DNA from: Lucinisca nassula
Taxonomy: Eukaryota; Mollusca; Bivalvia; Lucinida; Lucinidae
Length of the DNA stretch: 64,000 bases
Assembly: GCA_963580285.1 (NCBI GenBank)
Contig: OY757026.1
Span: forward strand, 89,254,651 to 89,318,650
Reading direction: 5' to 3'
Shown: piece after piece, positions 4,665 to 61,140 of the stretch
Numbering within the stretch: the stretch's first letter is position 1
How the letters are laid out: the number at the start of each line of letters is the position of its first letter
Made by a program: the position numbers and the translations under genes
Notes under the pieces: generated by a model
The model's database searches: none
Told to the model about the DNA's origin: nothing
What the model saw: the letters and a program-made list of their open reading frames with translations, nothing else

Positions 4665-6290
4665 TTAGATTAAATCATATCGTGACTGAAATCCAAGTCT
4701 TTCAGTTGATAAGAATTTACATTTTGTTCCAGTGCATAATTTTAACTCCAAGTTCCCAAGAGATAATGTACATAAGTACCACTCAGCATACCTCTGCGGG
4801 GGTTTAATCTGTCTGCCACATCGTGTTTTATTTCGATGCTGTCCTGTATCAAGTTCCTGCGGTATCTGCGAATTTCCCGTGTCAATATTTTGTCCCATGT
4901 TTGCCTTATTTTCTCCCATGTTTCCCTGATCATACTGCGAGGGAATTTTCTGAAGATGGACACGGTTTCGCCTGTAAGTTCCGTCATTCGTTTTACCGTA
5001 TATGTTCTATTTTCTGTATCACAATCAACTACTGTCCCTTCTTTTTGCCACCGCTTCTCACTGTCAAGTTTTATCCGCACTTTGTCTCCGGCAGCCAAAT
5101 TTGGGAGTGAATGGGCTGCGTGTCTCCTATTGAAGAAGAATGTTTGATTTCCCTACGATTTGTCATGATGTATTTTCACAAGGTCATGACTTGGCCACTT
5201 AGGTCTAAGTTTTTCTATAGCACACGGTACATGTATCCGGATTTGTCTACCTATCATTAGTTCCGAAGGACTAAAGCTGGTAGCTACGGTCGGTGTACAA
5301 AGATAGGTCCTTAGTGCACTGTACGAATCCTTTTGTTAGAGAATATTTTTAGCGATTCAGGGTCACTGATGAGGCTTTATTAGCCGAAACTACGTAATAT
5401 GACCCATCTTCTTTCTTATGAATGTTTTCATTGCTCTTAAAGGAACTCATTTTTGATTTTTATTTGACGCCTGCTTCTGCAGCACAATTGGCCTGCGCAA
5501 AATAAGGAGAACTATATGTTTCTTTAATATTGTGTTCCTTTGCAAAGTCTTTAAAACACTTGGCTATGAACTGAGGGCCGCCATCGCACGTGATTTCTTC
5601 AGGGTCTCCCCAGCGCGAAAACATGTTTTCCATTTTGTCCACTACACGTTCACTGGTCAATGTATTCAGATATCCAATTTCTATGTATTTAGAATATGTA
5701 TCCATGGCAATGAGGTACGTTTTATTGTTCAACTGGCATAAATCTGCTGCAACCTTGACCCAAGGTCTCGATGGTAGTTCTGACGGTTTCAGTGGCTCTC
5801 GACGCTGTGTAGGTCTAGATTCCTGGCAAAATGTACAATTTTGCACCTTTTCAGTTAAGTCTTTATTAATTGTCGGCCACCACACGCACTGTGCTGCAAA
5901 GTCTTTGCATTTTGTGGGTCCCTGGTGCGACATATGCAGGTTGTCTAACACTTCCATGCGCCGGCTTACTGGAATAACGAGTCTATTTCTGTACATTAAC
6001 AGACCGTCAACAACAGAAAGTTCATTTCGAGCGCTGAAATACTCGTTGATAGAATCTGACAGATTTTGTCCAGTTTCTGGCAATCCTTTTCTCGTGAGCG
6101 AGATGACCTGCTGAATTTCTGAATCATTTAGCGTAGCATCGTAGATCATTTTCAAGCGCGTGTCACTAATTTGCATATAAGCAGTTACTGAATCAACATA
6201 CATTTTCAACTCATTTTCAATTTTACAGTCAATTTGCTTTAACGGCGATCTAGATAAACAATCAGATACTATCATGTCTTTTGAATTACC
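4665..6290 (-). pseudogene. Gypsy-type pol remnant: integrase
   Basis: The minus-strand frame 6275-5460 encodes an integrase. It has an H2C2-like zinc region (HMSHQGP, later CTFCQE), the D,D-35-E core with first Asp in 'VAADLCQL', second in 'TCDGGPQF', and a Glu in 'NCAAEAGVK'. The usual NGQAE context is altered. After about 360 bp of decayed sequence the frame 5098-4742 gives the C-terminal tail ('AAGDKVRIKL...EKRWQKEGTVV'), similar in layout to the tail of the intact Gypsy pol at 26621-29683. Protease, RT and RNase H are absent. The copy is cut at about 6300 where PLE sequence begins. Confidence 0.8.
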
Positions 6291-6351
6291 TATGCAATTA
6301 AATCTGCGTAACCGTAAAAGCAGCCTCTGGCATCTGATCGGTGCCCTGTCA

Positions 6352-6561
6352 ATGTAGAAGTAAAATAAAGATCAGGAATCGATACAATTAACTTACTCCA
6401 ACCATCAAAGACACCAAAGGGAAAGAAATACAAACATGAAGCGACCAGACCATAATGGAAACCTACCTAAACAAAGGAAGGCCATAAGGATAGTTACTTT
6501 CCCGCAAAATGGCGAAATGGCCATCCAAAATAAAAAGACACAAGTGATACACACAGTAAAG
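6352..6561 (-). mobile_element. PLE 3'-tail fragment
   Basis: A strongly 5'-truncated PLE insertion holding only the last ~210 bp. Read on the minus strand it ends TTTACTTCTAC. It abuts the start of the next copy's tail at 6562, so two copies lie head-to-tail in the same orientation. Confidence 0.75.
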
Positions 6562-9030
6562 TAGAAGTAAAACAAAGATCAGGAATTGATACAATTAACT
6601 TACTCCATCCATAAAAGACACCAAAGGGAAAGAAATACAAACATTAAGCGACCAGACCATAATGGAAACCTAAACAAAGGAAGGCCATATGGACAGTTAC
6701 TTTCCCACAAAATGGCCATATGGCCATCCAAAATTAAAAGACACAAGTGATACACACAGTAAGTAACAAACAACAACATAAATAAATCGCCACAGAAGAG
6801 CCGCCTTGGAACGGTCAGTGGAAGATTTCCACTGGGGGGCTTAAATCGATTTTACGTGGCCACAATCCTCGCCCTTACTTCCGTCGCGATTTAGACAAAT
6901 AATTTGTTCAGTCCGCATGAAGGCCTCCTAACTCATCAGTGCAACATCTCCGTGAACACAGAAATCAAAGAACCACAGAGGTGAGACAACGGTGAGGACT
7001 CGACAGCAAGAAATCACTGAAATGCTGGAGCAAAAGAAAACCAACAGTTAGACTCCGATGAGCCCGACCAGAGACAGAGCATCAGGCACCAACCAACATT
7101 ATCTCTTTAATTTTCAATAAGCCTTTACGTTGGAGCCGTCATAGAATCTGAGGCCTGACCCACCGGCGTGCAATTAAAGAGGGAAGCAAAGTTGCCAACC
7201 GTGATTGGGTTAACTACCATGCATGCAGTCTGTCGTATAATATCCATGTTGTACCCAATCTTTTTATATCGAAGAATGATTTTACGAAATTGGGTGCTGA
7301 AGTCATTGCGGTTATATATTTTTCTGAATTTATATACTAAGTCACCATAAAATTCGGGTTCCGATAGACCTTGTTGCAGAAGAGATTTAAGTCCAATATT
7401 GAATTTTGAAATTAAATCAGAATGGCGTCTATAAAATTTTGAAAAGGCTTTGCGTAGTTTATGGTACCGATAACCCTGATTAAGAAGTTTAGCCGTTAAT
7501 AATTTATTACGAGTGTTGAAGTCAGTTACATGACTACACACTCTAGCAAATCGAATTAATTGCGAAATATAAACGCCATAGGATGGCGCACGAGGAACAT
7601 CACCATCCAAAAAAGGAAAATTTACAATCTCAAAATCAAAGTCATCGCGTTTATCATAAATTTTGCACGAAACAAATCCATCTACAATAGATAGATGTAA
7701 ATCCAAAAACGGGGCCTCGGTATCAGAAGAATTTGCTTTATTTAACTGAAGTTCTAGGGGGTAAATCTGACTGATCAAACCATCAAAATAGGTATTATCA
7801 ATATTTAATAAATCATCTAAATATCTAGAAGTAGAGCTAAAAGCTTCAATAATTTCAGATTGGTTATCAATGGAAAGCGACAAAATGAAGTCTCTTTCAT
7901 AACAATACAAGAACAGATCAGCCACAAGAGGTGCGCAATTAGTACCCATCGGAGTACCCACAATTTGTCTAAATAACTTAGTACCGAATCTAATATAAAT
8001 ATTGTCAAGTAGAAAGGTGAGGGCATCACACACTTTCTGACATGACCAAAGTGTATAATTCTTATGCTCTTTAGAAGTGAAAAATGCATTTCTGACATTA
8101 CATGCAAGATAGAGAGAATCTTCTCTGTGAAAAGCCCATTCAATTAAATCATTAAGCTTTTCTTTTATAAGATTATGAGGAAGTGTAGTGTAAAGAGTGG
8201 AAAAATCGTAGGTAGACAGACTAGAAGCACGAAACTGTCTAGATTTCAATTTATTTAAAACCTCATTCGAATTTTTTATAGACCAAAACAGATTTCTTCC
8301 TGATCTTTCAAAGACTTTATCACAATATTTAATTACATGCGTTTTAATAGCAGTAAGACAGGAAGTTAATAATTTAGAAAGTTCAGTGGTAGTGCAAGAA
8401 CTTGAATTTGCAATAAACCGTGCTTTGTAAGGTTTTTTATGAAGTTTTGGTAACCAGTATAGCGTAGGAAGCTTGTATTGGCCTTCGTTAACACACACAG
8501 CAAACTTGGTGGCTGAAAGACAAACATGTTTATCTACTATAGCTCTCTCTTCAGCCAAAGGCTGAAGTTCATAGGCCTTAGTACCACCAAGCTCCTGCTT
8601 AAGCATGTTAACATAGTGGAGCCGTCACACAACGACGACGTTGTTAGCGGCCTTGTCTGCAGGGGCCAAAACAAACTTCTTATGAAATTCTTGAATACCT
8701 AGTTTAAGATGACGTAAAGACGTCTTGGGCTTAGGAGGTAATAAGTTAGTATTTTGAGAATAGAAAGAAATGCGTTTATTCACTAGTCTTAAAATGCTAA
8801 GTTTCCAGTCCTTTAGGGCTTTATACTCAACATACTCTCGCTTACACCATCGATTACCGAATTCATTCAAGGAAGCAGCGATTTCATCTCTACATTTACT
8901 GAAATCAATTCTAGAAGGAAACCGATATTTCGGTCCTTTAGAAATTATATTCCTTATCCTAGAATCAGGAATAATTTTCAAATTGCCAGTAATTACATGA
9001 CCAGCAGCAGGATAGCAATACTTGGAGTTA
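6562..9030 (-). mobile_element. Penelope-like element, longest copy
   Basis: The minus-strand copy runs from the linker and RT coding region (from about 9030 down to 7125) through a ~560-bp 3' UTR to the shared 3' tail at 6562. The 3' UTR contains a G-run (TCCACTGGGGGGC in plus orientation) whose length varies between copies. The 5' end, with the GIY-YIG endonuclease, is missing at a junction with another PLE tail near 9030. It is bordered by further copies on both sides. Confidence 0.85.
7125..9030 (-). CDS. PLE reverse transcriptase with in-frame UGA
   Basis: The frame starts with 'YCYPAAGHVITGNLKIIPDS', continues 'GPKYRFPSRIDF', and reaches 'APADKAANNVVVV'. UGA at 8627-8625 follows, then 'RLHYVNMLKQELGG' in the same frame. 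After that: fingers motif 'LPKLHKKPYKARFIANS', motif A 'YDFSTLYTTLP', motif B 'GTPMGTNCAPLVADLF', catalytic 'RYLDD' and a thumb region ending 'DSMTAPT' at 7125. Apart from the single UGA it is open for about 635 codons, unusual for a fragment. The family is expected to carry Cys at the UGA position, and another copy shares the UGA, so recoding as selenocysteine is plausible. PLE RTs prime reverse transcription at a nicked target in the nucleus. The N-terminal endonuclease is missing here. Confidence 0.85.
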
Positions 9031-9361
9031 AGTAACAAACAACAACATAAATAAACCGCCACAGAAGAACCGCTTTGGAATGGTCAGTGGAAAGATTTCG
9101 ATACAATTAACCAACAGCTCCCATCAGAGACATCAAAGGGAAAGAAATACAAACATGAAACAACAGACCCTAATGGAAACATCAATAGCGGAAAGCGAGA
9201 AGGACAGTTACTTTCCAACAAAATGGCCAATAGGCTATCCAAAGTAAAATTATATAAGCGACACAACCACCAAAAGACAAAACATAACAAAAATAAACCG
9301 CGACAGAAGAACCGCCTTGGAACGGTCAGCGGAAACGAATTCCACTGGGGGTGGGGGGCTT
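9031..9361 (-). mobile_element. PLE 3' UTR and tail fragments
   Basis: Two short minus-strand pieces (9031-9097 and 9098-9361) match the PLE 3' UTR and tail. The second belongs to a tail subtype with ACAGCTCCCATCAGAGACA in place of the usual ACTTACTCCA sequence. That subtype recurs at 10454, 13406 and 48802, and on the plus strand at 12316. Confidence 0.65.
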
Positions 9362-9592: not shown

Positions 9593-9800
9593 ATACATTC
9601 AGGAAAATATATAATTGAAATGACTTCAGGACCCAATTCCGTAAAATTATTCTTCGATATAAAAATATTGGGTACAACATAAATGTTATACGACAGACTG
9701 CATTCATGGTAGTTAACCCAATCACGGTTGACAACTTTGCTTCCATCTTTAATTGCACGCCGGTGGGTCAGGCCTCAGATTCTATGACAGTTCCAGCGTA
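9593..9800 (+). pseudogene. PLE RT C-terminal fragment
   Basis: Matches the last ~65 codons of the PLE RT, from 'FRKIYN' to 'DSMTVPA' and stop. The plus-strand copy is joined directly to RT N-terminal sequence of another copy at about 9810. Confidence 0.75.
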
Positions 9801-10150
9801 AAGGCTACTGGCGGTGTGGTCGTTGTTTGGCGGCTTCGTTGTGTTGGCGCTCTTCGGCAGGGGCTTGGTGGTACTAGGGCCTATGGGCTTCAGCCTTTGC
9901 CTGTAGAGGGGGCTTTGGTTGATGACCACGTTTGTCGTTCGGCCACCAAGTTTGCTGTCTGTGTTACAGAAGGCCAAGACAAGCTTCCTGCGTTATATTG
10001 GTTGCCTGGGCTTCGTGGAAGACCATGCAAAGCACTGTTTATTGCAAATTCAGGCTCTTGTACCACCACTGAACTCTCCAAATTATTAACTTCATGTTTT
10101 ACTGCCATAAAAAACATGCGATAAGTCTTCGAAAGATCAGGTAGAAATCT

Positions 10151-10391
10151 GGTTCTTCTGTCGCGGTTTATTTATGTTGTTGTTTGTTACTTACTGTGTG
10201 TATCACTTGTGTCTTTTTATTTTGGATGGCCATATGACCATTTTGTGGGAAAGTGACTGTCCTTATGGCCTTCCTTTGTTTAGGTTTCCATTATGGTCTG
10301 GTCGCTTAATGTTTGTGTTTATTTCCCTTTGGTGTCTTTGATGGGTGGAGTAAGTTAATTGTATCGATTCCTGATCTTTGTTTTACTTCTA
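10151..10391 (+). mobile_element. Nested PLE tail insertion
   Basis: About 240 bp of PLE 3' terminus (GTTCTTCTGTCGCGGTTTAT ... ACTTCTAC) interrupts the RT gene between 'AGAAATCTG' and 'TTTGGTCTATAAAAAATTC'. The uninterrupted sequence is visible at 8255-8300 on the minus strand. This shows directly that the recurring ~250-bp module is a 5'-truncated PLE insertion. Confidence 0.75.
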
Positions 10392-10453
10392 CTTTGGTCT
10401 ATAAAAAATTCTAATGAAGTTTTGGATAATCCGGGCGTTTTCGTGCTTCAAAA

Positions 10454-10678
10454 TAGAAGTAGAGGCAATGATCAGGAATCGATACAATCAACCCATAGTT
10501 CCCATCAGAGACACAAAAGGGAAAGAAACACAAACATGCAGCAACAGACCTAATGGAAACATCAACAGCGGAAAGCCAAAAGGACAGTTACTTTCCCACA
10601 AAATGGCCAACAGGCTAGCCAAAATAAAATAATACAAGCGACACAAACACCTAAAAACAAACCATAACAAAAATAAAT
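10454..10678 (-). mobile_element. Nested PLE tail insertion, inverted
   Basis: The minus-orientation tail of the second subtype (CAGCAACAGACC, AGCGGAAAGCC) interrupts the RT gene after 'TTTTCGTGCTTC'. The host sequence resumes at 10679 with TCTGTCTACTTATGATTTTT. The insertion therefore lies opposite to the host copy. Confidence 0.7.
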
Positions 10679-12315
10679 CTGTCTACTTATGATTTTTCCA
10701 CCCTTAACACTACACTTCCTCATAATCCTATAAAGGGAAAACTTAATGATTTAATTGAATGGTCATTTCGTGGGGAGGACTCCCTCTGTCTTGCATGTAA
10801 TGTAAGGAATGCTTTTTTCACTTCTGGAGAGAATACAAATTAAACTTTATGGTCATGTCGGGAAGTGTGTGAGGCTCTCACCTTTCTGCTTGACATTATT
10901 TACACAATATTTGGTACTAGGTTATTTGGACGGGTTGTGGGTGTTCCGGTGGGTGCTAATTGCGCACCACTCGTGGCTGATCTGTTTTTGTTCCGTTATG
11001 AGGGAGACTTCGTGGTGTCCCTTTCTGCTGAAAACCAGTCTGAAATCATTGGGGCTTTTAGCTCCACTTCCAGATATATTTGGATGTTTATTAAATGCTG
11101 GTTGTACCTGTTTCGGTGGTTTGGTCGGTCGGTTTTGCCCCCCCCCCCGGGCTTCGGTTAAATAGGGCAGATTCTTTTGATGCCGAGGCTCCGTTTTTGG
11201 ATTTACATCTATCTATTGTAGATGGGTTTGTTTCATGCAAGGTTTGTGGTTGGCCCGATGATTTTGGCTTTGGGATTGTAAATTTTCCTATTTTTGATGG
11301 TGATGCTCCTCGTTCGCCATCCTATGACGTTAATGTTTCGCAATTGGTTCGGTTTGCCAGAGTGTGTAGTCATGTAGCTGACTTCAACATTCGTGGTGTA
11401 TTGTTAACGGCTAACCTTCTAAGTCAGGGTTGTCGGTACCATGGACTGATCGGGGCCTTTTCGAAATTTTATAGACGTCATTCTGATTTAATTTCAAAAT
11501 TCAATATTGGACTTAAATCTCTTCTGCAACAGGGTCTATCGAAGCTCGAGTTTTGTGGTAGCCTGGTATGTGGATTCAGAGGGATAAGTGGCCGCAGTGA
11601 CTTCGGCACCCAATTTCGTAGGGTCATTCTTCGATATGGAGGGATTGGGTAAAGCATGGGTGTTGTGCGGCAGGCTGCGTGCATGGTGGTTGACCCGGTC
11701 GCGGTTGGCAGCTTCGCTTCCCTCTTTGGTTGCACGCCGGGCCTCGGGTTCTATGACGGTTCCAGCGTTGGGGCTTATTGAGAATTAGAGGGATCTAATT
11801 CAAGGTAATGTTGGTTGGTGCCTGGTGATGTGTCTCTGGTCGGGCCCATCGGGGTCTAGCTGTTGGTTTTCTTTTGCTCCGGCGTTTCGGTGGTTTCTTG
11901 CTGTCGAGTCCTCGCCGTTGTTTCATCTCTGTGGTTGTTTGATTATTTGTGTTCACGGAGATGTTGCGCTGATGTGTTGGGAGGCCTTCATGCGGACTGG
12001 GCGGATTATTTGTCTAAATCGCGACGGAAGTAAGGGCGAGGATTGTGGTCACGTAAAATCGATTGATGCCCCCCCCCCCACCAGTCGAATTCGTTTCCGC
12101 TGACCGTTCCAAGGCGGTTCTTCTGTCGCGGTTTATTTTTTTTTATGGTTTGTCTTTGGGTCTTCGTGGGAAAGTAACTGTCCTTATGGCCTTCCTTTGT
12201 TTAGGTTTCCATTATGGTCTGGTCGCTTCATGTTTGTGTTTCTTTCCCTTTGGTGTCTTTGATGGGTGGAGTAAGTTAATTGTATCGATTCCTGATCTTT
12301 GTTTTACTTCTACTT

Positions 12316-15505: not shown

Positions 15506-17250
15506 CGACAGCAAAGGTGAGGACTCGACAGCAAGAAACCACTGAAATGCTGAAGCAAAAGAAAACCAACAGTTAGACTCCGACGGGGCCGACCAGAGAC
15601 AGAGCATCAGGTACCAACCAACATAAACCTTTACGTTGGAACCGTCATAGAATCTTATGCCTGACCCACCGGCGTGCAATTAAAGAGGGGAGTAAAGTTG
15701 TCAACCGTGACTGGGTTAACTACCATGCATGCAATCTGTCGTATAACATTTATGTTGTACCCAATCTTTTCATATCGAAGAATGATTTTACGAAATTGGG
15801 TGCTGAAGTCATTGCGGTTATATATTTTTCTGAATTTATATATGTCACAGAGTGAAATTATGGAAACTGGAGGAGCGCTTGCGTTTAGGACTTTCTAGTC
15901 GTCTCCAGTTATTTTCCCCTATTGGTCGTCGTTTTTCATACTTCATATACTCATATATTCCATATTTCATTAAGCATTAAGCATTCCTGAGTAGCGTATA
16001 TCAATTTCCGGTGTCCTTATGTAAGTCTCGCGCACTTTTCACTTCACTGATTAACACCGCATGCGCACATTCTTACCTCAGCCTTTGTCAGTCTTTCTTT
16101 GTCCCTGGCGAAGGTAGGTCTCACGACCACCTGTCGGACACCATCTTTATGTTATTCCTAATTACTTAGGATATTTATAATATTATTCAGGTATGCGTTT
16201 ACTTTATTTCATTATCATGATGAACATTTGTAAATTATCATAATTGTCATTATTTCATGAATATTCGTATCTTGCCATTTCGATCTCTCGACCTCGGAGT
16301 CAGTCTTTCTTTGTCCCTGGCGAAGGTAGGTCTCACGACCACCTGACGGACACATCTTTATGTTATTCCTAATTACTTAGGATATTCATATTATTATTCA
16401 GATGACGAGGTCGAGAGGGAGAAGGTTCTGATTTAAAAACATGGAAACATCAAACAGAGTTATCGTTCGTTGAACCCCGAACCCCCTCGAGAAAGCGGGA
16501 GAAGTTATTATAACGTTGTATCAACGTCGTCATCATCACCATGTGGCCACAACCACCTTAAACCCATTCATCAACTCGATACAACCAACCCGTAACAACA
16601 ATCTTTCCCGTGACATATATACTAAGTCACCATAAAATTCTGGTTCCGATAGACCTTGTTGCAGAAGAGATTTAAGTCCAATATTGAATTTTGAAATTAA
16701 ATCAGAATGGCGTCTATAAAACTTTGAAAAGGCTTTGCGTAGTTTATGGCACCGATAACCCTGATTAAGAAGTTTAGCCGTTAATAATTTATTACAAGTG
16801 TTGAAGTCAGTTACATGACTACACACTCTAGCAAATCGAATTAATTGCGAATTATAAACGCCATAGGATGGCGCACGAGGAACATCACAGTCCAAAAAAG
16901 GAAAATTTACAATCTCAAAATCAAAATCATCGCGTCTATCATAAATTTTGCAAGAAACAAACCCATCTACAATAGATAGATGTAAATCCAAAAACGGGGC
17001 CTCGGTATCAGAAGAATTTGCTTTATTCAACTGAAGTTCGGGGGGGGGGGGGGTAAATTTGTCTGATCAATATTTAATAAATCATCCAAATATCTAGAAG
17101 TGGAGCTAAAAGCTTCAATGATTTCAGACTGGTTTTCAGCAGAAAGTGAAATCATGAAGTCTCTCTCATAACGAACAAAAACAGATCAGCCACGAGTGGT
17201 GCGCAATTAGAACCCATCGGAATACCCACAACTTGTCTAAGTAACTAAGT
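15506..17250 (-). pseudogene. PLE copy split by a solo LTR
   Basis: The minus-strand copy holds the 3' UTR (15506-15630), the RT C-terminus (15631-15842), then after the LTR the rest of the RT thumb and palm (16616-17250). A reading frame of about 137 codons survives at 17030-16620. A G-run at 17041-17053 and the missing catalytic segment show decay. The two halves match continuous sequence in the copy at 7125-8606. Confidence 0.75.
15843..16615 (+). mobile_element. Solo LTR-like insertion
   Basis: A 773-bp segment starts TGTCACAG and ends CGTGACA. It interrupts a PLE coding region whose uninterrupted form reads 'tttatatactaag'; TATATA is present on both sides, consistent with a 5-6 bp target duplication. 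It has no coding capacity. A ~110-bp internal segment (TGTCCCTGGCGAAGGTAGGT) is present twice, at 16085-16200 and 16295-16410. Orientation is not determined. Confidence 0.6.
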
Positions 17251-17832: not shown

Positions 17833-19300
17833 CAAGGCGGTTCTTCTGTGGCGATTTATTTATGTTGTTGTTTGTTACTTACTGTGTGTATCACTTGTGT
17901 CTTTTAATTTTGGATGGCCATATGGCCATTTTGTGGGAAAGTAACTGTCCTTATGGCCTTCCTTTGTTTAGGTTTCCATTATGGTCTGGTCGCTTAATGT
18001 TTGTATTTCTTTCCCTTTGGTGTCTTTGGTGGGTGGAGTAAGTTAATTGGACCGATTCCTGATCTTTGTTTTACTTCTACTTTTCATAGAGAAGATTCTC
18101 TCTATCTTGCATGTAATATCAGAAATGCATTTTTCTCTTCTAAAGAGCATAAGAATTATACACTTTGGTCATGTCAGAAAGTGTGTGATGCCCTCACCTT
18201 TCTACTTGACAATATTTATATTAGATTCGGTACTAAGTTATTTAGACAAATAGTGGATATTCCGATGGGTACGAATTGCGCACCTCTTATGGCTGATCTG
18301 TTCTTGAATTGTTATGAAAGAGACTTCTTGTTGTCGCTTTCCATTGATAACCAATCTGAAATTATTGAAGCTTTTAGCTCCACTTCTAGATATTTAGATG
18401 ATTTATTAAATATTGATAATACATATTTCTATGGTTTGATCAGTCAGATTTACCCCCCAGAACTTCAGTTAAATAAAGCAAATTCTTCTGATACCGAGGC
18501 CCCGTTTTTGGATTTACATCTATCTATTGTAGATGGGTTTGTTTCGTGCAAAATTTATGATAAACGCGATGACTTTGATTTTGAGATTGTAAGTTTTCCT
18601 TTTTTAGTTGGTGATGTTCCTCGTGCGCCATCCTATGGCGTTTATATTTCGCAATTAATTCGATTTGCTAGAGTGTGTAGTCATGTAACTGACTTCAACA
18701 CTCGTAATAAATTATCAACGGCTAAACTTCTTAATCAGGGTTATCGGTACCATAAACTACGCAAAGCCTTTTCAAAATTTTATAGACGCCATTCTGATTT
18801 AATTTCAAAATTCAATATTGGACTTAAATCTCTTCTACAACAAGGTCTATCGGAACCCGAATTTTATGGTGACTTAGAATATAAATTCAGAAAAATATAT
18901 AACCGCAATGACTTCAGCACCCAATTTCGTAAAATCACTCTTCGATATAAAAAGATTGGGTACAACATGGACGTTATACGACAAACTGCATGCATGGTAG
19001 TTAACCCAATCACGGTTGGCAATTTTGCTTCCCTCTTTAATTGCACAACGGTGGGTCACGCATCAGATTCTATGACGGTTCCAACGTAAAGGCTTATTGA
19101 GAATTAGAGAGATCTAATTCAAGGTAATGTTGGTTGGTACCTGATACTCTGTCTCTGGTTGGGCCCATCGGAGTCTAACTGTTGGTTTTTCTTTTGCTCC
19201 AGCATTTCAGTGGTTTCTTGCTGTCGAGTCCTCACCGTTGTCTCACCTCTGTGGTTCTTTGATTATTTGTGTTCACGGAGATGTTGCACTGATGAGTTAG
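17833..19300 (+). pseudogene. PLE copy with long RT frame
   Basis: A tail (17833-18083) is joined at CTACTTT to RT sequence. From there to 19089 the frame is open for about 335 codons: 'GTKLFRQIVDIPMGTNCAPL', 'RYLDDLLNIDN', through 'DSMTVPT'. All palm motifs from motif B onward are intact. The 3' UTR follows to about 19300, then the orientation flips. The upstream 27 residues of the open frame are translated tail and are not protein sequence. Confidence 0.8.
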
Positions 19301-20600
19301 TGTCAAGTAGAAAGGTGGGGGCATCACACTCTTTCTGACCTGACCAAAGTGTATAATTCTTATGCTCTATAGAAGTGAAAAATGCATTTCTGACATTACA
19401 TACACGATAGAGAGAATCTTCTCTGTGAAAAGCCCATTCAATTAAATCATTAAGCTTTTCTTTTATAATATTATGGGGAAGTGTGGTGTAAAGATTGGAA
19501 AAATCGTAAGTAGACAGACTTGAAGCACGGAAACGTCTGGATTTCAATTTATTTAAAGTAGAAGTAAAACAAAGATCAGGAATTGATACAATTAACTTAC
19601 TCCATCCATAAAAGACACCAAAGGGAAAGAAATACAAACATTAAGCGACCAGACCATAATGGAAACCTAAACAAAGGAAGGCCATATGGACAGTTACTTT
19701 CCCACAAAATGGCCATATGGCCATCCAAAATTAAAAGACACAAGTGATACACACAGTAAGTAACACACAACAACATAAATAAATCGCCACGGAAGAGCCG
19801 CCTTGGAACGGTCAGTGGAAGATTTCCACTGGGGGGCTTAAATCGATTTTACGTGGCCACAATCCTCGCCCTTACTTCCGTCGCGATTTAGACAAATAAT
19901 TTGTTCAGTCCGCATGAAGGCCTCCTAACTCATCAGTGCAACATCTCCGTGAACACAGAAATCAAAGAACCACAGAGGTGAAACAACGGTGAGGACTCGA
20001 CAGCAAGAAACCACTGAAATGCTGGAGCAAAAGAAAACCAACAGTTAGACTCCGATGAGCCCGACCAGAGACAGAGCATCAGGCACCAACCAACATTATC
20101 TCTTTAATTTTCAATAAGCCTTTACGTTGGAGCCGTCATAGAATCTGAGGCCTGACCCACCGGCGTGCAATTAAAGAGGGAAGCAAAGTTGCCAACCGTG
20201 ATTGGGTTAACTACCATGCATGCAGTCTGTCGTATAATATCCATGTTGTACCCAATCTTTTTATATCGAAGAATGATTTTACGAAATTGGGTGCTGAAGT
20301 CATTGCGGTTATATATTTTTCTGAATTTATATACTAAGTCACCATAAAATTCGGGTTCCGATAGACCTTGTTGCAGAAGAGATTTAAGTCCAATATTGAA
20401 TTTTGAAATTAAATCAGAATGGCGTCTATAAAATTTTGAAAATGCTTTGCGTAGTTTATGGTACCGATTAACCTGATTAAGGAGTTTAGCCGTTAATAAT
20501 TGATTACGAGTGTTGAAGTCAGTTACATGACTACACACTCTAGCAAATCGAACTAATTGCGAAATATAAACGCCATAGGATGGCGCACGAGGAACATCCT
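19301..20600 (-). pseudogene. PLE copies, minus strand
   Basis: An RT middle fragment (19301-19555) is joined to the tail of another copy (19557 onward), which continues through its 3' UTR and RT C-terminus up to about 20600. There it meets an inverted copy at a C-run (20601-20612). The 20122-20538 frame is nearly identical to the copy at 7125, suggesting recent duplication. Confidence 0.75.
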
Positions 20601-21833
20601 TCCCCCCCCCCCCAGAACTTCAATTAAATAAAGCAAATGCTTCTGATACCGAGGCCCCGTTTTTGGATTTACATCTATCTATTGTAGATGGGTTTGTTAT
20701 GTGCAAAATTTGTGATAAACGCGATGACTTTGATTTTGAGATTGTAAGTTTTCCTTTTTTGGATGGTGATGTTCCTCGTGCGCCATCCTATGGCGTTTAT
20801 ATTTCGCAATTAATTCGATTTGCTAGAGTGTGTAGTCATGTAACTGACTTCAACACTCGTAATAAATTATTAACGGCTAAACTCCTTAATCAGGGTTATC
20901 GGTACAATAAACTACGCAAAGCCTTTTCAAAATTTTATAGAAGCCATTCTGATTTAATTTCAAAATTCAATATTGGACTTAAATCTCTTCTGCAACAAGG
21001 TCTATCGGAACCCGAATTTTATGGTGACTTAGTATATAAATTCAGAAAAATATATAACCGCAATGACTTCAGCACCCAATTTCGTAAAATCACTCTTCGA
21101 TATAAAAAGATTGGGTACAACATGGATGTTATACGACAGACTGCATGCATGCTAGTTAACCGAATCACGGTTGGCAACTTTGCTTTCCTCTTTAATTGCA
21201 CGCCGGTGGGTCAGGCCTCAGATTCTATGACGGCTCCAACGTAAAGGCTTATTGGGAATTAGAGAGATCTAATTCTTGGTAATGTTGGTTGGTGCCTGAT
21301 GTGCTGTCTCTGGTTGGGCCCATCGGAGTCTAACTGTTGGTTTTCTTTTGCTCCAGCATTTCAGTGGTTTCTTGCTGTCGAGTCCTCACCGTTGTCTCAC
21401 CTCTTTGGTTCTTTGATTTTTTTGTGTTCACGGAGATGTTGCACTGATGAGTTAGGAGGCCTTCATGCGGACTGAACAAATTATTTGTCTAAATCGCGAC
21501 GGAAGTAAGGACGAGGATTGTGGCCAGGTAAAATCGATTTAAGCCCCCCCCCCCCAGTGGAAATGTTTCCACTGACCGTTCCAAGGCGGTTCTTCTGTGG
21601 CGATTTATTTATGTTGTTTGTTACTTACTGTGTGTATCACTTGTGTCTTTTAATTTTGGATGGCCATATGGCCATTTTGTGGGAAAGTAACTGTCCTTAT
21701 GGCCTTCCTTTGTTTAGGTTTCCATTATGGTCTGGTCGCTTAATGTTTGTATTTCTTTCCCTTTGGTGTCTTTGATGGGTGGAGTAAGTTAATTGTATCG
21801 ATTCCTGATCTTTGTTTTACTTCTACTTTACTT
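20601..21833 (+). pseudogene. PLE RT C-terminal copy, plus strand
   Basis: The open frame from 20613 to 21244 covers the RT thumb ('MDLHLSIVDGF' to 'DSMTAPT'), followed by a complete 3' UTR and tail ending CTTCTACTTT at 21833. It forms an inverted repeat of more than 500 bp with the preceding minus-strand copy, separated only by the C-run. Confidence 0.75.
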
Positions 21834-22093: not shown

Positions 22094-22957
22094 AGTAGAA
22101 GTAAAACAAGGATCAGGAATCGATACAATTAACTTACTCCACCCATCAAAGACACCAAAGGGAAAGAAACACAAATATTAAGCGACCAGACCATAATGGA
22201 AACCTTAACAAAGGAAGGCCATAAGGACAGTTACTTTCCCACAAAATGGCCATATGGCCATCCAAAATAAAAAGACACAAGCGATACACACAGCAAGTAA
22301 CAAACAACAACACAAATAAACCGCCACAGAACGCCTTGGAACGGTCAGTGGAAAGATTTCCACTGGGGGGCTTACATCGATTTTACGAGGCCACAATCCT
22401 CGCCCTTACTTCCGTCGCGATTTAGACAAATAATTAGTTCAGTCCGCATGAAGGCCCCCAACCCACCAGCGCAACATCTCCGTGAACATAAAAAAATCAA
22501 AGAACCACAGAGGTGAAACAATGGTGAGGACTCGACAGCAAGAAACCACTGAAATGCTGGAGCAAAAGAAAACCAAAGTAAGACCCCGACGGGCCCGACC
22601 AGAGACAAAGCATCAGGCACCAACCAACATTACCAAGAACCAGACCCCCCCCCCCCAACTCCTAACAAGCCCCCACGCCGGAGCCGCCACAGAATCCGAG
22701 GCCCGACCCACCGACGCGCAGCCAAAGAGGGAAGCAAAGCCGCCAACCGTGACCGGGCCAACCACCATGCATGCAGTCCGCCGCACAACACCCACGCTGC
22801 ACCCAACCTTTTTATACCGAAGAACGACCTCACGAAACCGGGCGCCGAAGCCACCGCGGTCACCCCCCCCCCCCGAATTTATACACTAAGTCACCATAAA
22901 ACTCGGGCTCCGACAGACCCTGCCGCAGAAGAGACTCAAGTCCAACACCGAATTTGT
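22094..22957 (-). pseudogene. PLE copy, hypermutated (A-to-G sense strand)
   Basis: The minus-strand tail and 3' UTR (22094-22630) look normal. From 22631 to 22955 the 3' UTR start and RT C-terminus differ from other copies at dozens of sites, almost all T-to-C in plus orientation, that is A-to-G on the element's sense strand. C-runs at 22646 and 22866 arise where other copies have TCTCTCT or TATATATTTTTC. The protein reads 'GVVRRTACMVVGPVTVGGFA' against 'DVIRQTACMVVNPITVGNFA' elsewhere. Confidence 0.75.
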
Positions 22958-23261
22958 GGCCACGTAAAATCGATTTAAGCCCCCCAGTGTAAATCTTCCA
23001 CTGACCGTTCCAAGGCGGCTCTTCTGTGGCGATTTATTTATGTTGTTGTTTGTTACTTACTGTGTGTATCACTTGTGTCTTTTAATTTTGGATGGCCATA
23101 TGGCCATTTTGTGGGAAAGTAACTGTCCATATGGCCTTCCTTTGTTTAGGTTTCCATTATGGTCTGGTCGCTTATTGTTTGTATTTCTTTCCCTTTGGTG
23201 TCTTTTATGGATGGAGTAAGTTAATTGTATCAATTCCTGATCTTTGTTTTACTTCTACTTT
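22958..23261 (+). mobile_element. PLE tail, plus strand
   Basis: The plus-strand 3' UTR end and tail are joined at CTACTTTGAAATT to a minus-strand RT fragment. The junction letters CTTTGAAATT could come from either side, so there is microhomology. Confidence 0.65.
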
Positions 23262-23493
23262 GAAATTAAATCAGAATGGCGTCTATAAAATTTCGAAAAG
23301 GCTTTGCGTAGTTTATGGTACCGATAACCCTGATTAAGGAGTTTAGCCGTCAATAATTCACCACGAGCGCCGAAGTCAGCCACACGACCACACAAGCTAG
23401 CAAATCGAATTAACTGCGAAACACAAACGCCATAGGATGGCGCACGAGGAACACCACCATCCAAAAAAGGAAAACCCACAATTTCAAAACCAA
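23262..23493 (-). pseudogene. PLE RT fragment, patchily hypermutated
   Basis: The minus-strand RT thumb fragment is normal from 23262 to 23343 ('KLRKAFSKFYRRHSDLIS'). From 23344 to 23493 it carries about 19 T-to-C changes against about 3 others relative to 7497-7650. The encoded changes (N to G, D to G, Y to C, I to V, H to R, T to A, K to E) are all explained by A-to-G on the sense strand. Confidence 0.75.
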
Positions 23494-24290
23494 AGACTAT
23501 CTCCTCTCATGTCACCAATCCTTCGAAAATATACTAATCCGTGGAAAAGAAGTGGAATGTATATTATTATTTCTAAGTGCAATGCCAAGAGGTGCAGATG
23601 TTGTTCGCATTTAAGCACAGCTACTACCGTTACTTCATCTGTAAACGGTAGACGCTTCTCTGTAGTTAACATGTCTGATTTGACATGGCAGTCTACAGAT
23701 TTAATTTATCTAATTACATGACGTGCTGCAAACTGTAATATGCAGTACGTCGGTCAAACTAACCGCATGCTTAAAACTAGATTGAACGAGCATTATCGTA
23801 GAATGAGTAAAGAAGAAGTAAAAAGACACAAGCGACACACACAGTAAGTAACAAACAACAACATAAATAAACCGCCACAGAAGAACCGCCTTGGAACGGT
23901 CAGTGGAAAGATTTCTAAGAAAACTGACACTTTCTTGTACCGTCACTTTCGACGTACAGGTCATTCTGTAAATAACATTGTTATACAACCAGTGGAAAAA
24001 CTTTACTACGAAGCAAATTCTACATCTAGATTCAAAATTTATCAAAAGACAGGAGTCTGAACTGAAATGGATTAAATCTATACAGACCCCTTTTCCACAT
24101 TGGGATTTAATGACAACATTTATCATAAGGGTATTATTTCCTGGATGCCGGACTTTGATATTTTCTCGCTCCTCGAATGTCAAAAACGCAGAACTAGATC
24201 TCACGGCACCAGGAAAAATGGTAACTTTAAACGTAAATTACGTGCGTTTAAACGAAACAATACTAGACTGAAGTAACTGTCAATTATATT
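23494..24290 (+). pseudogene. PLE GIY-YIG endonuclease domain
   Basis: Reads 'ISKCNAKRCRCCSHL' (Cys/His zinc-binding style), 'FSVVNMSDLTWQSTDLIYLI', then T-UGA-R, 'AANCNMQYVGQTNRMLKTRL' and 'NEHYRRMS'. After an inserted 95-bp minus-strand PLE piece (23819-23915) it resumes 'KKTDTFLYRHFRRTGHSVNN' and ends in a basic region near 24275. The GIY-YIG nuclease nicks target DNA to prime PLE integration. UGA at 23719-23721 lies where a Cys is expected. Two small frameshifts near 24050-24110 and TAA codons at 24272 and about 24332 show the copy is dead. Confidence 0.8.
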
Positions 24291-25048
24291 ATTAAATCAT
24301 GGACGCCACTCTATGCTTTCATTTCTTAGTTAATTACCCGTTTCTGTTTTACGTCTTCTGGACACCGAGGCGAATAAATTCTACGATAGTTCTAATCAGT
24401 TATATGATGCGGCTCTCTTAACTAGAGGCTATACTCAGCATACTCTCCGTCCTTACATTGATTCTGAAATTAATCATAAACGCCATTTCTTCAAAATATC
24501 CTTCATTAATAAGGGTATGGATTTTATAGATTTACCCAGTATTTTTCGTGAGAGCTCGGTGCTTTCTTCCTTTCCTGCTTATTTTCAAAATACTGAAACA
24601 CCTATAATTTGCTATAAATATAACAAACCTGTTAGATCTATCATTTTTAATTTCAATAAACTTGTTTCAGATCTTGATATTGATACTTATACTCCTGATT
24701 CATGTGATTGTAAAAACTCAGTGTATTGCTATCCTTCTGCTGATCATGTAATTACTGGCAATTTGAAAATTATTCCTGATTCTAGGATTTCTAAAGGATC
24801 GAAATATCGATTTCCTTCTAAAATTGATTTCAGTAACTGTAGAGATGAAATCCCTGCTGCCTTGAACGAATTCGGTAATCGATGGTGTAAGCGAGGGTAT
24901 GTTGAGCATAAAGCCCTTAAGGACTGGAAACTTACCATTTTAAAACTAGTGAATAAACGCATTTCTGTCTATTCTCAAAATACTAACTTATTACCTCCTA
25001 AGCCTAAGACGTCTTTATGCCATCTAAAACTAGGTATTCAAGAATTTC
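24291..25048 (+). pseudogene. PLE CxC linker and RT N-terminus
   Basis: Continues in the reading frame of the GIY-YIG domain: 'VLRLLDTEANKFYDSSNQLY', 'INKGMDFIDLPSIFRES', 'SCDCKNSVYCYPSADHVITG' with the CxC motif, and 'GSKYRFPSKIDFSNCRDE', ending at 'QEFHKK' where an inverted tail is inserted. It overlaps the start of the RT copy at 9030-8700. Together they show the order GIY-YIG, CxC linker, RT, which is diagnostic of Naiad-type PLEs as I recall the family description. Confidence 0.8.
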
Positions 25049-25510
25049 ATAAGAAAAGTAGAAGTAAAACAAAGATCAGGAATTGATACAATTAACTTAC
25101 TCCACCCATCAAAGACACCAAAGGCAAAGAAACACAAACATTAAGCGACCCGACCATAATGGAAACCTAAACAAAGGAAGGCCATAAGGACAGTTACTTT
25201 CCCACAAAATGGCCATATGGCCATCCAAAATAAAAAGACACAAGTGATACACACAGTAAGTAACATACAACAACATAAATAAACCGCCACAGATGAACCG
25301 CCTTGGAACGGTCAGTGGAAAGATTTCCACGGGGGGGGGGGGGTTAAATCGATTTCACATGGCCACAATCCTCGCCCTTACTTCCGTCGCGATTTAGACA
25401 AATAATTTGTTCAGTCCGCATGAAGGCCTCCTTACTCATCAGTGCAACATCTCCGTGAACACAAATAATCAAAGAACCACAGAGGTGAGACAACGGTGAG
25501 GACTCGACAG
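25049..25510 (-). mobile_element. PLE tail and 3' UTR, split by Gypsy
   Basis: The minus-strand PLE end is interrupted at GACAG (25506-25510) by the Gypsy element. It resumes after the second GACAG at 31094-31098 with 'caagaaaccactgaaatgct'. Confidence 0.75.
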
Positions 25511-25767: not shown

Positions 25768-25860
25768 TGGTGTCAGAAGTACTGTAGGCGGGATTATTTT
25801 TGCAGTGACTTATATTTCACAATTTCATATTTACCATTAACGAAGTAAATTTTGTGAGAA

Positions 25861-26628
25861 ATGGATCAGTTACACCAGCCTGCGGAAATGGACTATTCCA
25901 CTTCTGGAAATATTGCAGAAAGATGGAAAATGTGGAAACAAACTGTGCAGCTGTATTTAGACGTTGTAATGTCGGATAAAAAGGAAAAAGAACAGTGCAA
26001 AGCATTGCTGTATATTATTGGCAAAGACGGTTGGGAAATTTACAATACATTTGTGTTACAAGAGGCAGAAAGGGACAAATTAGTTCCACTTCTTGACAAG
26101 TTTGAGACCTATTGTATTCCAAAAAAGATTATCACAATGGAGAGACACAAATTTAACACCAGGACACAAGGCAGTACCGAACTCATAGATCAGTTTGTAA
26201 CGGATTTGAAAAATATTGCACGCGAATGTGAATTTGGCGACATCAAAAATGATTTAATCAGGGACAGAATTGTTTGTGGCACAAGCTCAGAAAAAGTCAA
26301 AGAAAGATTGTTGCGAGAAGATAAACTGACTTTAGAGAAGGCGATTTCAATATGTAGAGCGGATGAGGAATCAAAAAGGCAGATCCAAAAAATGAACGAG
26401 GATCATGAAAATGCTGTGCACTACGTGAAAAGTAAACGGAAGTCAAAAGGAGTCGTAGGAGGTGCAAGACCCAAAGAATATTCGGATAAAAAATTCCAAT
26501 GTGGCAAATGCGGAATTATGCATGAAAGAAGAAAGCGTCTGGCTTATGGAAAATTATGTCATAATTGTCAAAGGCCTCATCATTTTGCTAAATTTTGTAA
26601 GTCTAAATTAAAGAAAAAATGTGCATAA
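25861..26628 (+). CDS. gag: Gypsy gag polyprotein
   Basis: A 255-residue capsid/nucleocapsid protein that packages the retrotransposon RNA into cytoplasmic particles. The N-terminal ~185 residues are helical and Trp-containing ('RWKMWKQTVQLYLD'), in the style of retrotransposon gag. The C-terminus has CGKCGIMHERR and a zinc knuckle CHNCQRPHHFAKFC that fits CX2CX4HX4C. The start ATG at 25861 is the first after the LTR and primer binding site. It overlaps pol by 8 bases; pol is in the +1 frame relative to gag, so a +1 frameshift or re-initiation is needed. The frame is intact. Confidence 0.85.
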   Translation: MDQLHQPAEMDYSTSGNIAERWKMWKQTVQLYLDVVMSDKKEKEQCKALLYIIGKDGWEIYNTFVLQEAERDKLVPLLDKFETYCIPKKIITMERHKFNTRTQGSTELIDQFVTDLKNIARECEFGDIKNDLIRDRIVCGTSSEKVKERLLREDKLTLEKAISICRADEESKRQIQKMNEDHENAVHYVKSKRKSKGVVGGARPKEYSDKKFQCGKCGIMHERRKRLAYGKLCHNCQRPHHFAKFCKSKLKKKCA

Positions 26629-30160: not shown

Positions 30161-31093
30161 TGTAATGATAAAGGACATCTGTTTCAATTAGGTATATCTC
30201 ACCAGAAAATACACACCCTTATTATCAAATGATATATTATAAAGTTCTCGCCCACTTAGAACTAGCAGTCTGTATCTAGAGCTGGAATGGTTTAGTACTA
30301 AATGAAAGCCGTATTAAAGTAGAAGTAAAACAAAGATCAGGAATTGATACAATTAACTTACTCCACCCATAAAAGACACCAAAGGGAAAGAAATACAAAC
30401 ATTAAGCGACCAGACCATATTGGAAACCTAAACAAAGGAAGGCCATAAGGACAGTTACTTTCCCACAAAATGGCCATATGGCCATCCAAAACCAAAAGAC
30501 ACAAGTGATACACACAGCAAGTAACAAACAACAACATAAATAAATCGCCACAGAAGAGCCGCCTTGGAACGGTCAGTGGAAGATTTCTACTGGGGGGCTT
30601 AAATCGATTTTACGTGGCCATAGTCCTCGCCCTTACTTCCGTCGCGATTTAGACAAATAATTTGTTCAGTCCGCATGAAGGCCTCCTAACTCATCAGTGC
30701 AACATCTCCGTGAACACAAAAATCAAAGAACCACAGAGGTGAGACAACGGTGAGGACTCGACAGCAAGAAACCACTGAAATGCTGGAGCAAAAGAAAACC
30801 AACAGTTAGACTCCGATGAGCCCAACCAGAGACAGAGCATCAGGCACCAACCAACATTATCTCTCTAATTTTCAATAAGCCTTTACGTTGGAGCCGTCAT
30901 AGAATCTGAGGCCTGACCCACCGGCGTGCAATTAAAGAGGGAAGCAAAGTTACCAACCGTGATTGGGTTAACTACCATGCATGCAGTCTGTCAAGTAGCT
31001 TTGTTATTCTATATATTATATATCAATTAAAAAGTTTAGTACTAGATCTAAGAAGTTGGTCTCATTAAGAAAGACCCAGCCAAACATAGGACA
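30161..31093 (+). mobile_element. Gypsy 3' LTR interrupted by PLE
   Basis: The LTR is present as 30161-30322 and 30993-31093, with a minus-strand PLE between. AAGTAG occurs at both edges. The LTR end ATAGGACA is followed by the target duplicate GACAG (31094-31098), matching 25506-25510. The two LTRs differ by roughly 4 of 257 positions. Confidence 0.85.
30323..30992 (-). mobile_element. PLE inserted in the Gypsy 3' LTR
   Basis: A 5'-truncated PLE copy of about 670 bp: tail, 3' UTR and the last ~30 codons of the RT. It is younger than the Gypsy insertion. The target, intact in the 5' LTR at 25670, reads GTATTAAAGTAGCTTTG. The flanking AAGTAG is either a 6-bp target duplication or microhomology with the element end, which itself reads AAGTAGAAGTAAAAC in plus orientation. 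Confidence 0.8.
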
Positions 31094-31098
31094 GACAG

Positions 31099-33062
31099 CA
31101 AGAAACCACTGAAATGCTGGAGCAAAAGAAAACCAACAGTTAGACTCCGATGGGCCCGACCAGAGACAGAGCATCAGGCACCAACCAACATTACCTTGAA
31201 TTAGATCTCTCTAATTCTCAATAAGCCTTTACGTTGGAGCCGTCATAGAATCTGAGGCCTGACCCACCGGCGTGCAATTAAAGAGGGAAGCAAAGTTACC
31301 AACCGTGATTGGGTTAACTACCATGCATGCAGTCTGTCGTATAACATCCATGTTGTACCCAATCTTTTTATATCGAAGAATGATTTTACGAAATTGGGTG
31401 CTGAAGTCATTGCGGTTATATATTTTTCTAAATTTATATACTAAGTCACCATAAAATTCGGGTTCCGATAGACCTTGTTGCAGAAGAGATTTAAGTCCAA
31501 TATTGAATTTCGAAATTAAATCAGAATGGCTTAATGTTTGTATTTCTTTCCCTTTGGTGTCTTTTATGGATGGAGTAAGTTAATTGTATCAATTCCTGAT
31601 CTTTGTTTTACTTCTACTTGGAACGGTCAGTGGAAAGATTTCCACTGGGGGGGCTTAAATCGATTTTACGTGGCCACAATCCTCGCCCTTACTTCCGTCG
31701 CGATTTAGACAAATAATTTGTTCAGTCCGCATGAAGGCCTCCTAACTCATCAGTGCAACATCTCCGTGAACACAAAAAAAAATCAAAGAACCACAGAGGT
31801 GAGACAACGGTGAGGACTCGACAGCAAGAAACCACTAAAATGCTGGAGGAAAAGAAAACCAACAGTTAGACTCCGATGGGCCCGACCAGAGACAGAGCAT
31901 CAGGCACCAACCAACATTACCAAGAATTAGATCTCTCTAATTCTCAATAAGCCTTTACGTTGGAGCCGTCATAGAATCTGAGGCCTGACCCACCGGCGTG
32001 CAATTAAAGAGGGAAGCAAAGTTACCAACCGTGATTGGGTTAACTACCATGCATGCAGTCTGTCGTATAACATCCATGTTGTACCCAATCTTTTTATATC
32101 GAAGAATGATTTTACGAAATTGGGTGCTGAAGTCATTGCGGTTATATATTTTTCTAAATTTATATACTAAGTCACCATAAAATTCGGGTTCCGATAGACC
32201 TTGTTGCAGAAGAGATTTAAGTCCAATATTGAATTTCGAAATTAAATCAGAATGGCTTAATGTTTGTATTTCTTTCCCTTTGGTGTCTTTTATGGATGGA
32301 GTAAGTTAATTGTATCAATTCCTGATCTTTGTTTTACTTCTACTTGGAACGGTCAGTGGAAAGATTTCCACTGGGGGGCTTAAATCGATTTTACGTGGCC
32401 ACAATCCTCGCCCTTACTTCCGTCGCGATTTAGACAAATAATTTGTTCAGTCCGCATGAAGGCCTCCTAACTCATCAGTGCAACATCTCCGTGAACACAA
32501 AAAAAATCAAAGAACCACAGAGGTGAGACAACGGTGAGGACTCGACAGCAAGAAACCACTAAAATGCTGGAGCAAAAGAAAACCAACAGTTAGACTCCGA
32601 TGGGCCCGACCAGAGACAGAGCATCAGGCACCAACCAACATTACCAAGAATTAGATCTCTCTAATTCTCAATAAGCCTTTACGTTGGAGCCGTCATAGAA
32701 TCTGAGGCCTGACCCACCGGCGTGCAATTAAAGAGGGAAGCAAAGTTACCAACCGTGATTGGGTTAACTACCATGCATGCAGTCTGTCGTATAACATCCA
32801 TGTTGTACCCAATCTTTTTATATCGAAGAATGATTTTACGAAATTGGGTGCTGAAGTCATTGCGGTTATATATTTTTCTAAATTTATATACTAAGTCACC
32901 ATAAAATTCGGGTTCCGATAGACCTTGTTGCAGAAGAGATTTAAGTCCAATATTGAATTTTGAAATTAAATCAGAATGGCGTCTATGGCCATCCAAAATA
33001 AAAAAAACACAAGTGATACACACAGTAAGTGACAAACAACAACATAAATAAATCGCCACAGA
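31099..33062 (-). repeat. Tandem array of a PLE composite unit
   Basis: A composite of about 725 bp (minus-strand PLE 3' UTR and RT C-terminus joined to an 85-bp plus-strand tail) occurs three times head-to-tail. The same 60-codon shadow frame recurs at 31272, 31998 and 32722, spacing 726 and 724 bp. The units are almost identical, including the same novel junction 'cagaatgg|cttaatgtttg' at 31530 and 32257. They therefore arose by tandem duplication after the composite formed, not by separate insertions. Confidence 0.8.
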
Positions 33063-33947
33063 TGAACCGCCTTGGAACGGTCAGTGGAAAGATTTCCACT
33101 TGGGGGGGGGGGGGGGGGATTAAATCGATTTCACATGGCCACAATCCTCGCCCTTACTTCCATCGCGATTTAGACAAATAATTTGTTCAGTCCGCATGAA
33201 GGCATCCTAACTCATCAGTGCAACATCTCCGTGAACACAAATAATCAAAGAACCACAGAGGTGAGACAACGGTGAGGACTCGACAGCAAGAAACCACTGA
33301 AATGCTGGAGCAAAAGAAAACCAACAGTTAGACTCTGATGGGCCCGACCAGAGACAGAGCATCAGGCACCAATCAACATTACCTTGAATTAGATCTCTCT
33401 AATTCTCAATAAGCATTTACGTTGGAACCGTCATAGAATCTGAGGCCTGACCCACCGGCATGCAATTAAAGAGGGAAGCAAAGTTACCAACCGTGATTGG
33501 GTTAACTACCATGCATGCAGTCTGTCGTATAACATCCATGTTGTACCCAATCTTTTTATATCAAAGAATGATTTTACGAAATTGGGTGCTGAAGTCATTG
33601 CGGTTGTTTTTCTGAATTTATATACTAAGTCACCATAAAATTGGGGTTCCGATAGACCATGTTGCAGAAGAGATTCAAGTCCAATATTGAATTTTGAAAT
33701 TAAATCAGAATAGCGTCTATAAAATTTTGAAAAGGCTTTGCGTAGTTTATGGTACCGATAACCCTGATTAAGAAGTTGAGCCGTTAATAATTTATTACGA
33801 GTGTTAAAGTCAGTTACATGACTACACACTCTAGCAAATCGAATTAATTGCGAAATGTAAACGCCATAGGATGGCGCACGATGAACATCACCATCCAAAA
33901 AAGGAAAACTTACTATCTCAAAATCAAAGTCATCTTGTTTATCAAGT
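33063..33947 (-). pseudogene. PLE copy, RT C-terminal half
   Basis: Minus-strand 3' UTR with a long G-run (33102-33118) and RT C-terminus to about 33947. A small deletion near 33606 shifts the frame ('RKTTAMTSAPNF'). It meets an inverted RT N-terminal fragment at 33948. Confidence 0.75.
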
Positions 33948-34263
33948 TTGTTGTGGTCCCTGCAGACAAGGCCGCTAACAATGTCGTCGTTATGTGACGG
34001 CTCAACTATGTTAACACGCTTAAGCAAGAGCTTGATGGTACTAAGGCCTATGAACTTCAGCCTTTAGCTGAAGAGAGAGCTATAGTAGATGAACATATTT
34101 GTCATTCAGCCACCAAGTTTGCTGTGTGTGTGTTACAGAAGGCCAAGACAAGCTTCCTACACTATACTGGTTACTAAAACTTCATAAAAGACATTACAAA
34201 GCACGGTTTATTGCAAATTCTAGCTTTTGCACTACCGCTGAACTTTGTAAATTATTAACTTTC
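33948..34263 (+). pseudogene. PLE RT N-terminal fragment with UGA
   Basis: Reads 'VVVPADKAANNVVVM', UGA (33995-33997), 'RLNYVNTLKQELDGTKAYEL', 'QPLAEERAIVDEHICHSATK'. A 2-nt insertion near 34130 shifts the frame before 'TEGQDKLPTLYW'. The sequence differs from the copy at 8600 at several positions yet keeps UGA at the same site. This is the last PLE piece before the TOP2 gene. Confidence 0.75.
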
Positions 34264-61065: not shown

Positions 61066-61140
61066 TTTTTATACGCCCGTTTTGAAAAAACGGGACGTAT
61101 TATGTTATGGGGTCCGCGTCTGTCCGTCCGTCCGTCCGTA

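Follow-up and report, generated by a model that had tools for sequence, protein, structure and literature searches.

A very abundant Naiad-type Penelope-like element in the genome of Lucinisca nassula very probably encodes a selenoprotein with four UGA-coded selenocysteines

Naiads, a kind of Penelope-like element (PLE), reportedly encode selenoproteins with multiple selenocysteines in clams and spiders, as Craig, Yushenova, Rodriguez and Arkhipova are said to have described in 2021 (Mol Biol Evol 38:5005). A selenoprotein-coding kind of PLE has thus reportedly already been published for clams; the term combinations that we searched in the literature listed no paper on such elements. In selenoprotein genes the SECIS usually lies in the 3' UTR, and one placed in a coding region is reported for a poxvirus gene. 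Canonical Penelope and Poseidon PLEs carry a reverse transcriptase (RT) and a GIY-YIG endonuclease in one protein, with the endonuclease at the C-terminus (PMC11167929); the element studied here has the same two domains, but its endonuclease precedes the RT.

The window, that is, the whole analysed stretch of 64 kb, comes from a genome of 2.93 Gb. It would hold pieces of a Naiad-type retrotransposon of very high abundance, with a GIY-YIG-like endonuclease, a CxC linker and an RT; most of the PLE copies in the window are truncated. We consider it very probable that this is a selenoprotein-encoding Naiad-type PLE, in which four UGAs are read as selenocysteine (Sec) through one 3' SECIS. In the mechanism that we propose, the host's selenocysteine machinery would decode the four UGAs of one long frame, and a single SECIS, placed 3'-terminally in the transcript, would direct the decoding of them all. 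This SECIS would span the end of the coding sequence, taking its 5' core from the last codons and its AAA from the UAA terminator and the next base.

Three copies in the window bear on the RT site:

7125..9041 (-): 5'-truncated PLE copy whose RT frame contains a single UGA and ends in TAA (frame and translation)
8625..8627 (-): in-frame TGA at the RT site, codon 575 in the frame of copy L012 (sequence and genome-wide flank counts)
9735..10151 (+): third copy spanning the RT site, A-to-G-rich, with TGG at 9828-9830 (sequence, alignment)
33944..34261 (+): second UGA copy, with 91.8% identity to the first copy in 318 bases (alignment)
33995..33997 (+): in-frame TGA at the same RT site (sequence)

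An earlier note on this DNA had pointed to an in-frame UGA at 8627-8625 (-), flanked by NNVVVV and RLHYVN, and to another at the same site of a second copy, at 33995-33997 (+), with NNVVVM before it and RLNYVN after it. Both are present as described, and the RT frame of the first copy, 9041-7128 (-), contains no stop besides the UGA until the TAA at 7127-7125. The argument that the note built on the two copies holds in part. They are indeed diverged, and not one fresh duplication, because 25 of 318 aligned bases differ; their sharing of the UGA alone, however, proves little, because one UGA-bearing ancestor could have given both. The third copy is rich in A-to-G changes, so its TGG is most simply read as a former TGA.

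The genome-wide count of TGA is stronger evidence than the two copies of the window. The note had called for tabulating UGA against UGU/UGC over the copies of the family: the query GTCGTTGTG-NNN-CGGCTCCACT, with exact flanks, finds the site at 6835 places in the genome, with TGA in 6664 (97.5%) and TGT or TGC in 16, while 155 matches belong to neither count and Cys-coding copies with altered flanks would escape it. With up to three flank mismatches there are 8981 places, and the 100 listed comprise 99 TGA and one TGG. In 45 loci fetched from the 85 listed copies outside the window, the RT site was recognised 46 times, always as TGA; these copies are about 99% identical and therefore represent one recent burst, not independent evidence of long-term constraint. 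In a protein search of the genome, the 499 codons after the UGA were open in all 86 copies scored, the best of 142,075 first-look candidates. The in-frame UGA is conserved and coding remains open beyond it, as in a selenoprotein gene.

These figures also bear on whether the UGAs are nonsense mutations, in dead-end copies mobilised by the enzyme of intact Cys-coding elements elsewhere in the genome. We hold this to be highly improbable: the truncation of most window copies and the 16 copies with TGT or TGC, together with any Cys copies missed for their changed flanks, would agree with it, but TGA prevails at 97.5% of the exact matches, the frame is open in 86 of 86 copies, and the predicted ORFs of listed relatives at 50-84% identity end at the same site. 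With TGA in thousands of copies, and a SECIS-like hairpin in most of those looked at closely, the RT-site UGA is most likely a selenocysteine codon and not a broken one.

The RT-site UGA is real, but the note's single UGA is too few. Long fetched copies have a single frame of about 1074 codons with four in-frame UGAs, which lie at 133, 144, 294 and 575 in the L012 frame (UGA read as U): two in the N-terminal GIY-YIG-like endonuclease (EN1 and EN2), one in the linker and one in the RT. Wherever the flanks were recognised in fetched copies the codon was TGA (EN1 22/22, EN2 22/22, linker 26/26, RT 45/45). The endonuclease UGAs sit just upstream of MQYVGQT, presumably at the two Cys positions of the CCHH motif of PLEs. 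An older N-terminal copy in the window has TGG, TGA and TAA at the first three sites, all of them TGA or one step off:

23686..25056 (+): N-terminal half of a decayed copy (sequence; endonuclease coordinates derived)
23686-23688 (+): EN site 1, TGG
23719-23721 (+): EN site 2, TGA
24274-24276 (+): linker site, TAA
24703-24711 (+): CxC, TGT GAT TGT

In long copies the order is GIY-YIG-like region, CxC, RT. The region upstream of the CxC and the RT reads SDLTUQSTDLIYLITURAANCNMQYVGQT...RLNEH, presumably a GIY-YIG-type endonuclease motif, and one relative, P0292, has a precomputed annotation of PF01541, which we take to be the family name for the GIY-YIG endonuclease. The CxC is found as TGT GAT TGT in 30 of 46 rows of the fetched loci, the 16 others being mostly too short upstream. 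An N-terminal GIY-YIG endonuclease and a CxC before the RT would place the element with the Naiad PLEs. Pfam gave no match to the L012 frame at E <= 1 and nothing relevant above cut-off for the read-through RT, the linker or the full frame (RVT_1, 13 bits vs 29.6). No hammerhead ribozyme occurs among 33 Rfam matches at E <= 5 in the 64-kb window, whose copies are mostly truncated. Scans of viral contigs found no relative, and a scan of genome contigs found two distant fragments (one mussel-symbiont assembly), too distant to inform on the SECIS. Sequence searches against solved structures yielded four weak insulin matches, which we discarded, and then none.

The 3' ends of the copies carry SECIS-like hairpins:

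7073..7152 (-): SECIS-like element over the last codons and the UAA stop at 7127-7125 (SECIS_1, 25.1 bits; fold)
15606..15647 (-): SECIS-like core without helix III, with a U-A pair; minimum-energy fold not SECIS-like (core scan)
19073..19145 (+): SECIS-like core of copy 18079-19086, helix II U-A in place of C-G (core scan)
20070..20149 (-): SECIS-like element of copy 20598-20125 (Rfam, fold, core scan)
21228..21300 (+): SECIS-like core of copy 20609-21241, z -3.63 (core scan, fold)
30831..30910 (-): SECIS-like element of copy 30990-30886 (Rfam, fold, core scan)
31165..31256 (-): SECIS-like element with long helix III, z -2.33 (Rfam, fold, core scan)
31891..31982 (-): SECIS-like element, long form (Rfam, core scan)
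32615..32706 (-): SECIS-like element, long form, z -3.41 (Rfam, fold, core scan)

Six of these match SECIS_1 in the window, all on the sense strand and at 3' ends of copies, at 24.1-25.1 bits, below the gathering score of 35 of the eukaryotic SECIS family (Rfam RF00031). On a 351-base stretch the SECIS_1 match has an E-value of 0.0087 over all families; the long form at 32615..32706 gave no SECIS_1 match when a 201-base stretch was scanned alone. A scan for the core (AUGA...AAA...UGAU), with a pattern chosen after these elements had been seen, finds nine matches in the window; every one lies at the end of an element, and shuffled windows give 0.37 on average. The core is present in 9 of the 12 window copies that keep both halves, failing in two A-to-G-rich copies and in the copy ending at 33420, and is intact in 42 of the 45 fetched copies; it is lost in part in L012 (3' half gone) and L024 and was not found in L031. 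Within 30658-33458 the 3' end of the element is repeated several times in tandem, in near-identical form and each time with a SECIS-like hairpin.

The AUGA of the core lies within the codons ATG ACG, and the unpaired AAA consists of the UAA stop and the next A. Met 1070 occurs in all 62 listed relatives selected for aligning to the end, and in 61 of the 62 the residue after it has codons starting with A, in keeping with a preserved AUGA in relatives. Covariation is weak: the one compensatory change, in helix II (C-G 9, U-A 2, U-G 1), was also reached in 239 of 500 shuffles, with the number of paired cells equalled in 27 of 500 and the covariation score in 7 of 500. The short form does not stand out by its fold z-scores (-0.98 and -0.24), and of another four elements three reach only -1.1 to -1.3. 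Core and position are those of a SECIS at the 3' end, with 25.1 bits at best vs the gathering score of 35. By inference, the hairpin would act as a SECIS, each of the four sites would receive Sec, and the product would be active. At the level of sequence, the earlier note's reading of the UGA as a selenocysteine codon is supported: the family shows neither a majority of Cys codons at the site nor a lack of SECIS folds.

The same hairpin, scoring under the Rfam gathering score, might have another role if the UGAs were leaky stops, passed by a near-cognate tRNA in programmed readthrough that needs no selenium. A UGA followed by C is a leaky stop context, and C is the next base after each of the four UGAs of L012; UGA-CGG, found at the RT site, is similar to a viral readthrough context. 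Against this, the SECIS core stands at the expected place, four leaky stops in series would leave very little full-length product, and the listed relatives most often have Cys at the RT site (32 of 58), as the earlier note expected of the family. Such readthrough appears quite unlikely to us, and selenocysteine remains the preferred reading.

As for the host, a tRNA-Sec model has 31 matches in the genome, nine of them above the cut-off of 47, the best two at 80.0 and 77.4 bits; all 14 control genomes gave matches to the model as well, above the cut-off in five. The genome probably has a tRNA-Sec, and this tRNA would speak for Sec machinery in the host. Estimates of dN/dS, also called for by the note, are only partly favourable: the three longest RT comparisons gave 0.28, 0.31 and 0.38, but four shorter ones 0.46, 0.58, 0.59 and 1.22; a comparison of the 24334 copy with L012 was left out as mis-registered.

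We aligned to the L012 frame 359 distinct relatives, listed by three protein searches (best 120 of 1427, best 120 of 1085 and best 120 of 435). Their ends cluster at 1074 (62 relatives), the element stop, at 574 (23), the codon preceding the RT UGA, and at 436 (23), the position preceding the initial Cys of the CxC (CxC1); no further end position is shared by more than three. Starts cluster at 151 (66), 307 (31) and 577 (18). Some relatives fill whole segments to within one residue, 17 at 151-436 and 11 at 577-1074, as would be expected if the UGAs were genuine stops and the segments between them were translated singly by reinitiation. Yet gene callers derive such ORFs from every in-frame stop, termination within the endonuclease and within the RT would leave neither domain whole, and a Cys reading alternates among relatives with a stop or Trp reading; we give split products very little credence. 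Under the selenoprotein reading, relatives appear cut at UGA sites in the searched protein collection, and such elements are therefore probably misannotated.

Trp is frequent at EN1 (36 of 39 listed relatives; Cys 1), EN2 (30 of 38; Cys 6), the RT site (24 of 58) and CxC1 (68 of 122), and reaches 0-4 at each of the other Cys columns; at the linker site Asp prevails (69 of 95; Cys 5). Trp at these four columns would fit TGA read as Trp by the gene callers of the sources. On this account the endonuclease sites of relatives would be UGA read under another code, with few Cys, the RT site Cys or Trp/stop, and the linker site mostly Asp. P0133 and P0136, with Trp at CxC1 yet an end at the RT site, run contrary to it. 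Among 240 listed proteins, many of which end elsewhere, 18 have W both at CxC1 and at the RT site; W at CxC1 is combined once with Cys at the RT site and twice with an end there. Of those with C at CxC1, 13 end at the RT site, one has Cys there and two have W. Of the 32 listed relatives with Cys at the RT site, 28 have an alignable part that starts downstream of CxC1, some with unrelated leading residues; the others have one Cys, two Ser and one Trp at CxC1. Homologues thus appear to have Cys for UGA clearly at the RT site and weakly at EN2 and EN1, with the linker unsupported. There seems to be an alternation of Sec and Cys among lineages, with Cys at CxC1 but UGA at the RT site in the genome of the window and apparently the reverse, or both, in others. 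The relatives of other species are known as proteins, so their UGAs and SECIS are inferred from these.

A joint reading, which we advance tentatively and think somewhat doubtful, has four Sec inserted via a single SECIS built across the element's own stop codon, together with turnover of Sec sites between lineages. A terminating ribosome would then enter the very element that directs recoding. Turnover would consist of Cys/Sec exchange at the RT site and the CxC, and of gain at the linker site, mostly Asp; the element would tolerate or favour Sec without dependence on any one position.

PLE copies rich in A-to-G changes on the sense strand lie at 9735-11999 (+) and 22431-23495 (-). Of the 91 substitutions in 22955-22431, 78 are A-to-G, as are 130 of the 218 in 10678-11999; four segments pooled have 256 of 398, with 34 T-to-C and a mild preference for G 3' of the site. 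These copies look like ADAR-edited RNA, reverse transcribed and inserted. ADAR1 edits viral RNA in molluscs (PMC6651903). G or R in place of N or K gives P0033, P0083 and P0136, relatives from other sources, an A-to-G-edited look, so editing may be recurrent.

Other features of the window include an LTR-type retroelement by appearance, largely intact, at 25849-29683 (+), with a 1023-codon frame at 26612-29683 (+) and a second frame upstream, and an integrase fragment at 5460-6392 (-) (PF17921, PF00665). An exon at 45363-45839 (+) is presumably similar to the N-terminus of DNA topoisomerase II. At 61100-62080 (-) the peptide KMFTKISKGHNSVNIWR is repeated in tandem, with one TGA per unit.

Selenoproteins are rare and costly. 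An element that has thousands of UGA-bearing copies in a single genome would, if the reading is true, be an extreme case, and its retrotransposition could be linked to the supply of selenium. A natural series on how one SECIS serves several UGAs would be offered by a SECIS that overlaps the stop and by Sec/Cys sites that shift.

Altogether, the element resembles Naiad PLEs in its N-terminal GIY-YIG-type endonuclease, CxC linker, RT and very high copy number. What is described here for this genome is a set of four UGA sites, a SECIS that extends over the stop codon and a linker UGA at a site that is mostly Asp; the latter two, together with the turnover of Sec and Cys, may be new features. With eukaryotic selenoprotein genes and their SECIS (RF00031) it shares the AUGA / AAA / UGAU core at the 3' end, and it differs from them in that the SECIS overlaps the stop codon.
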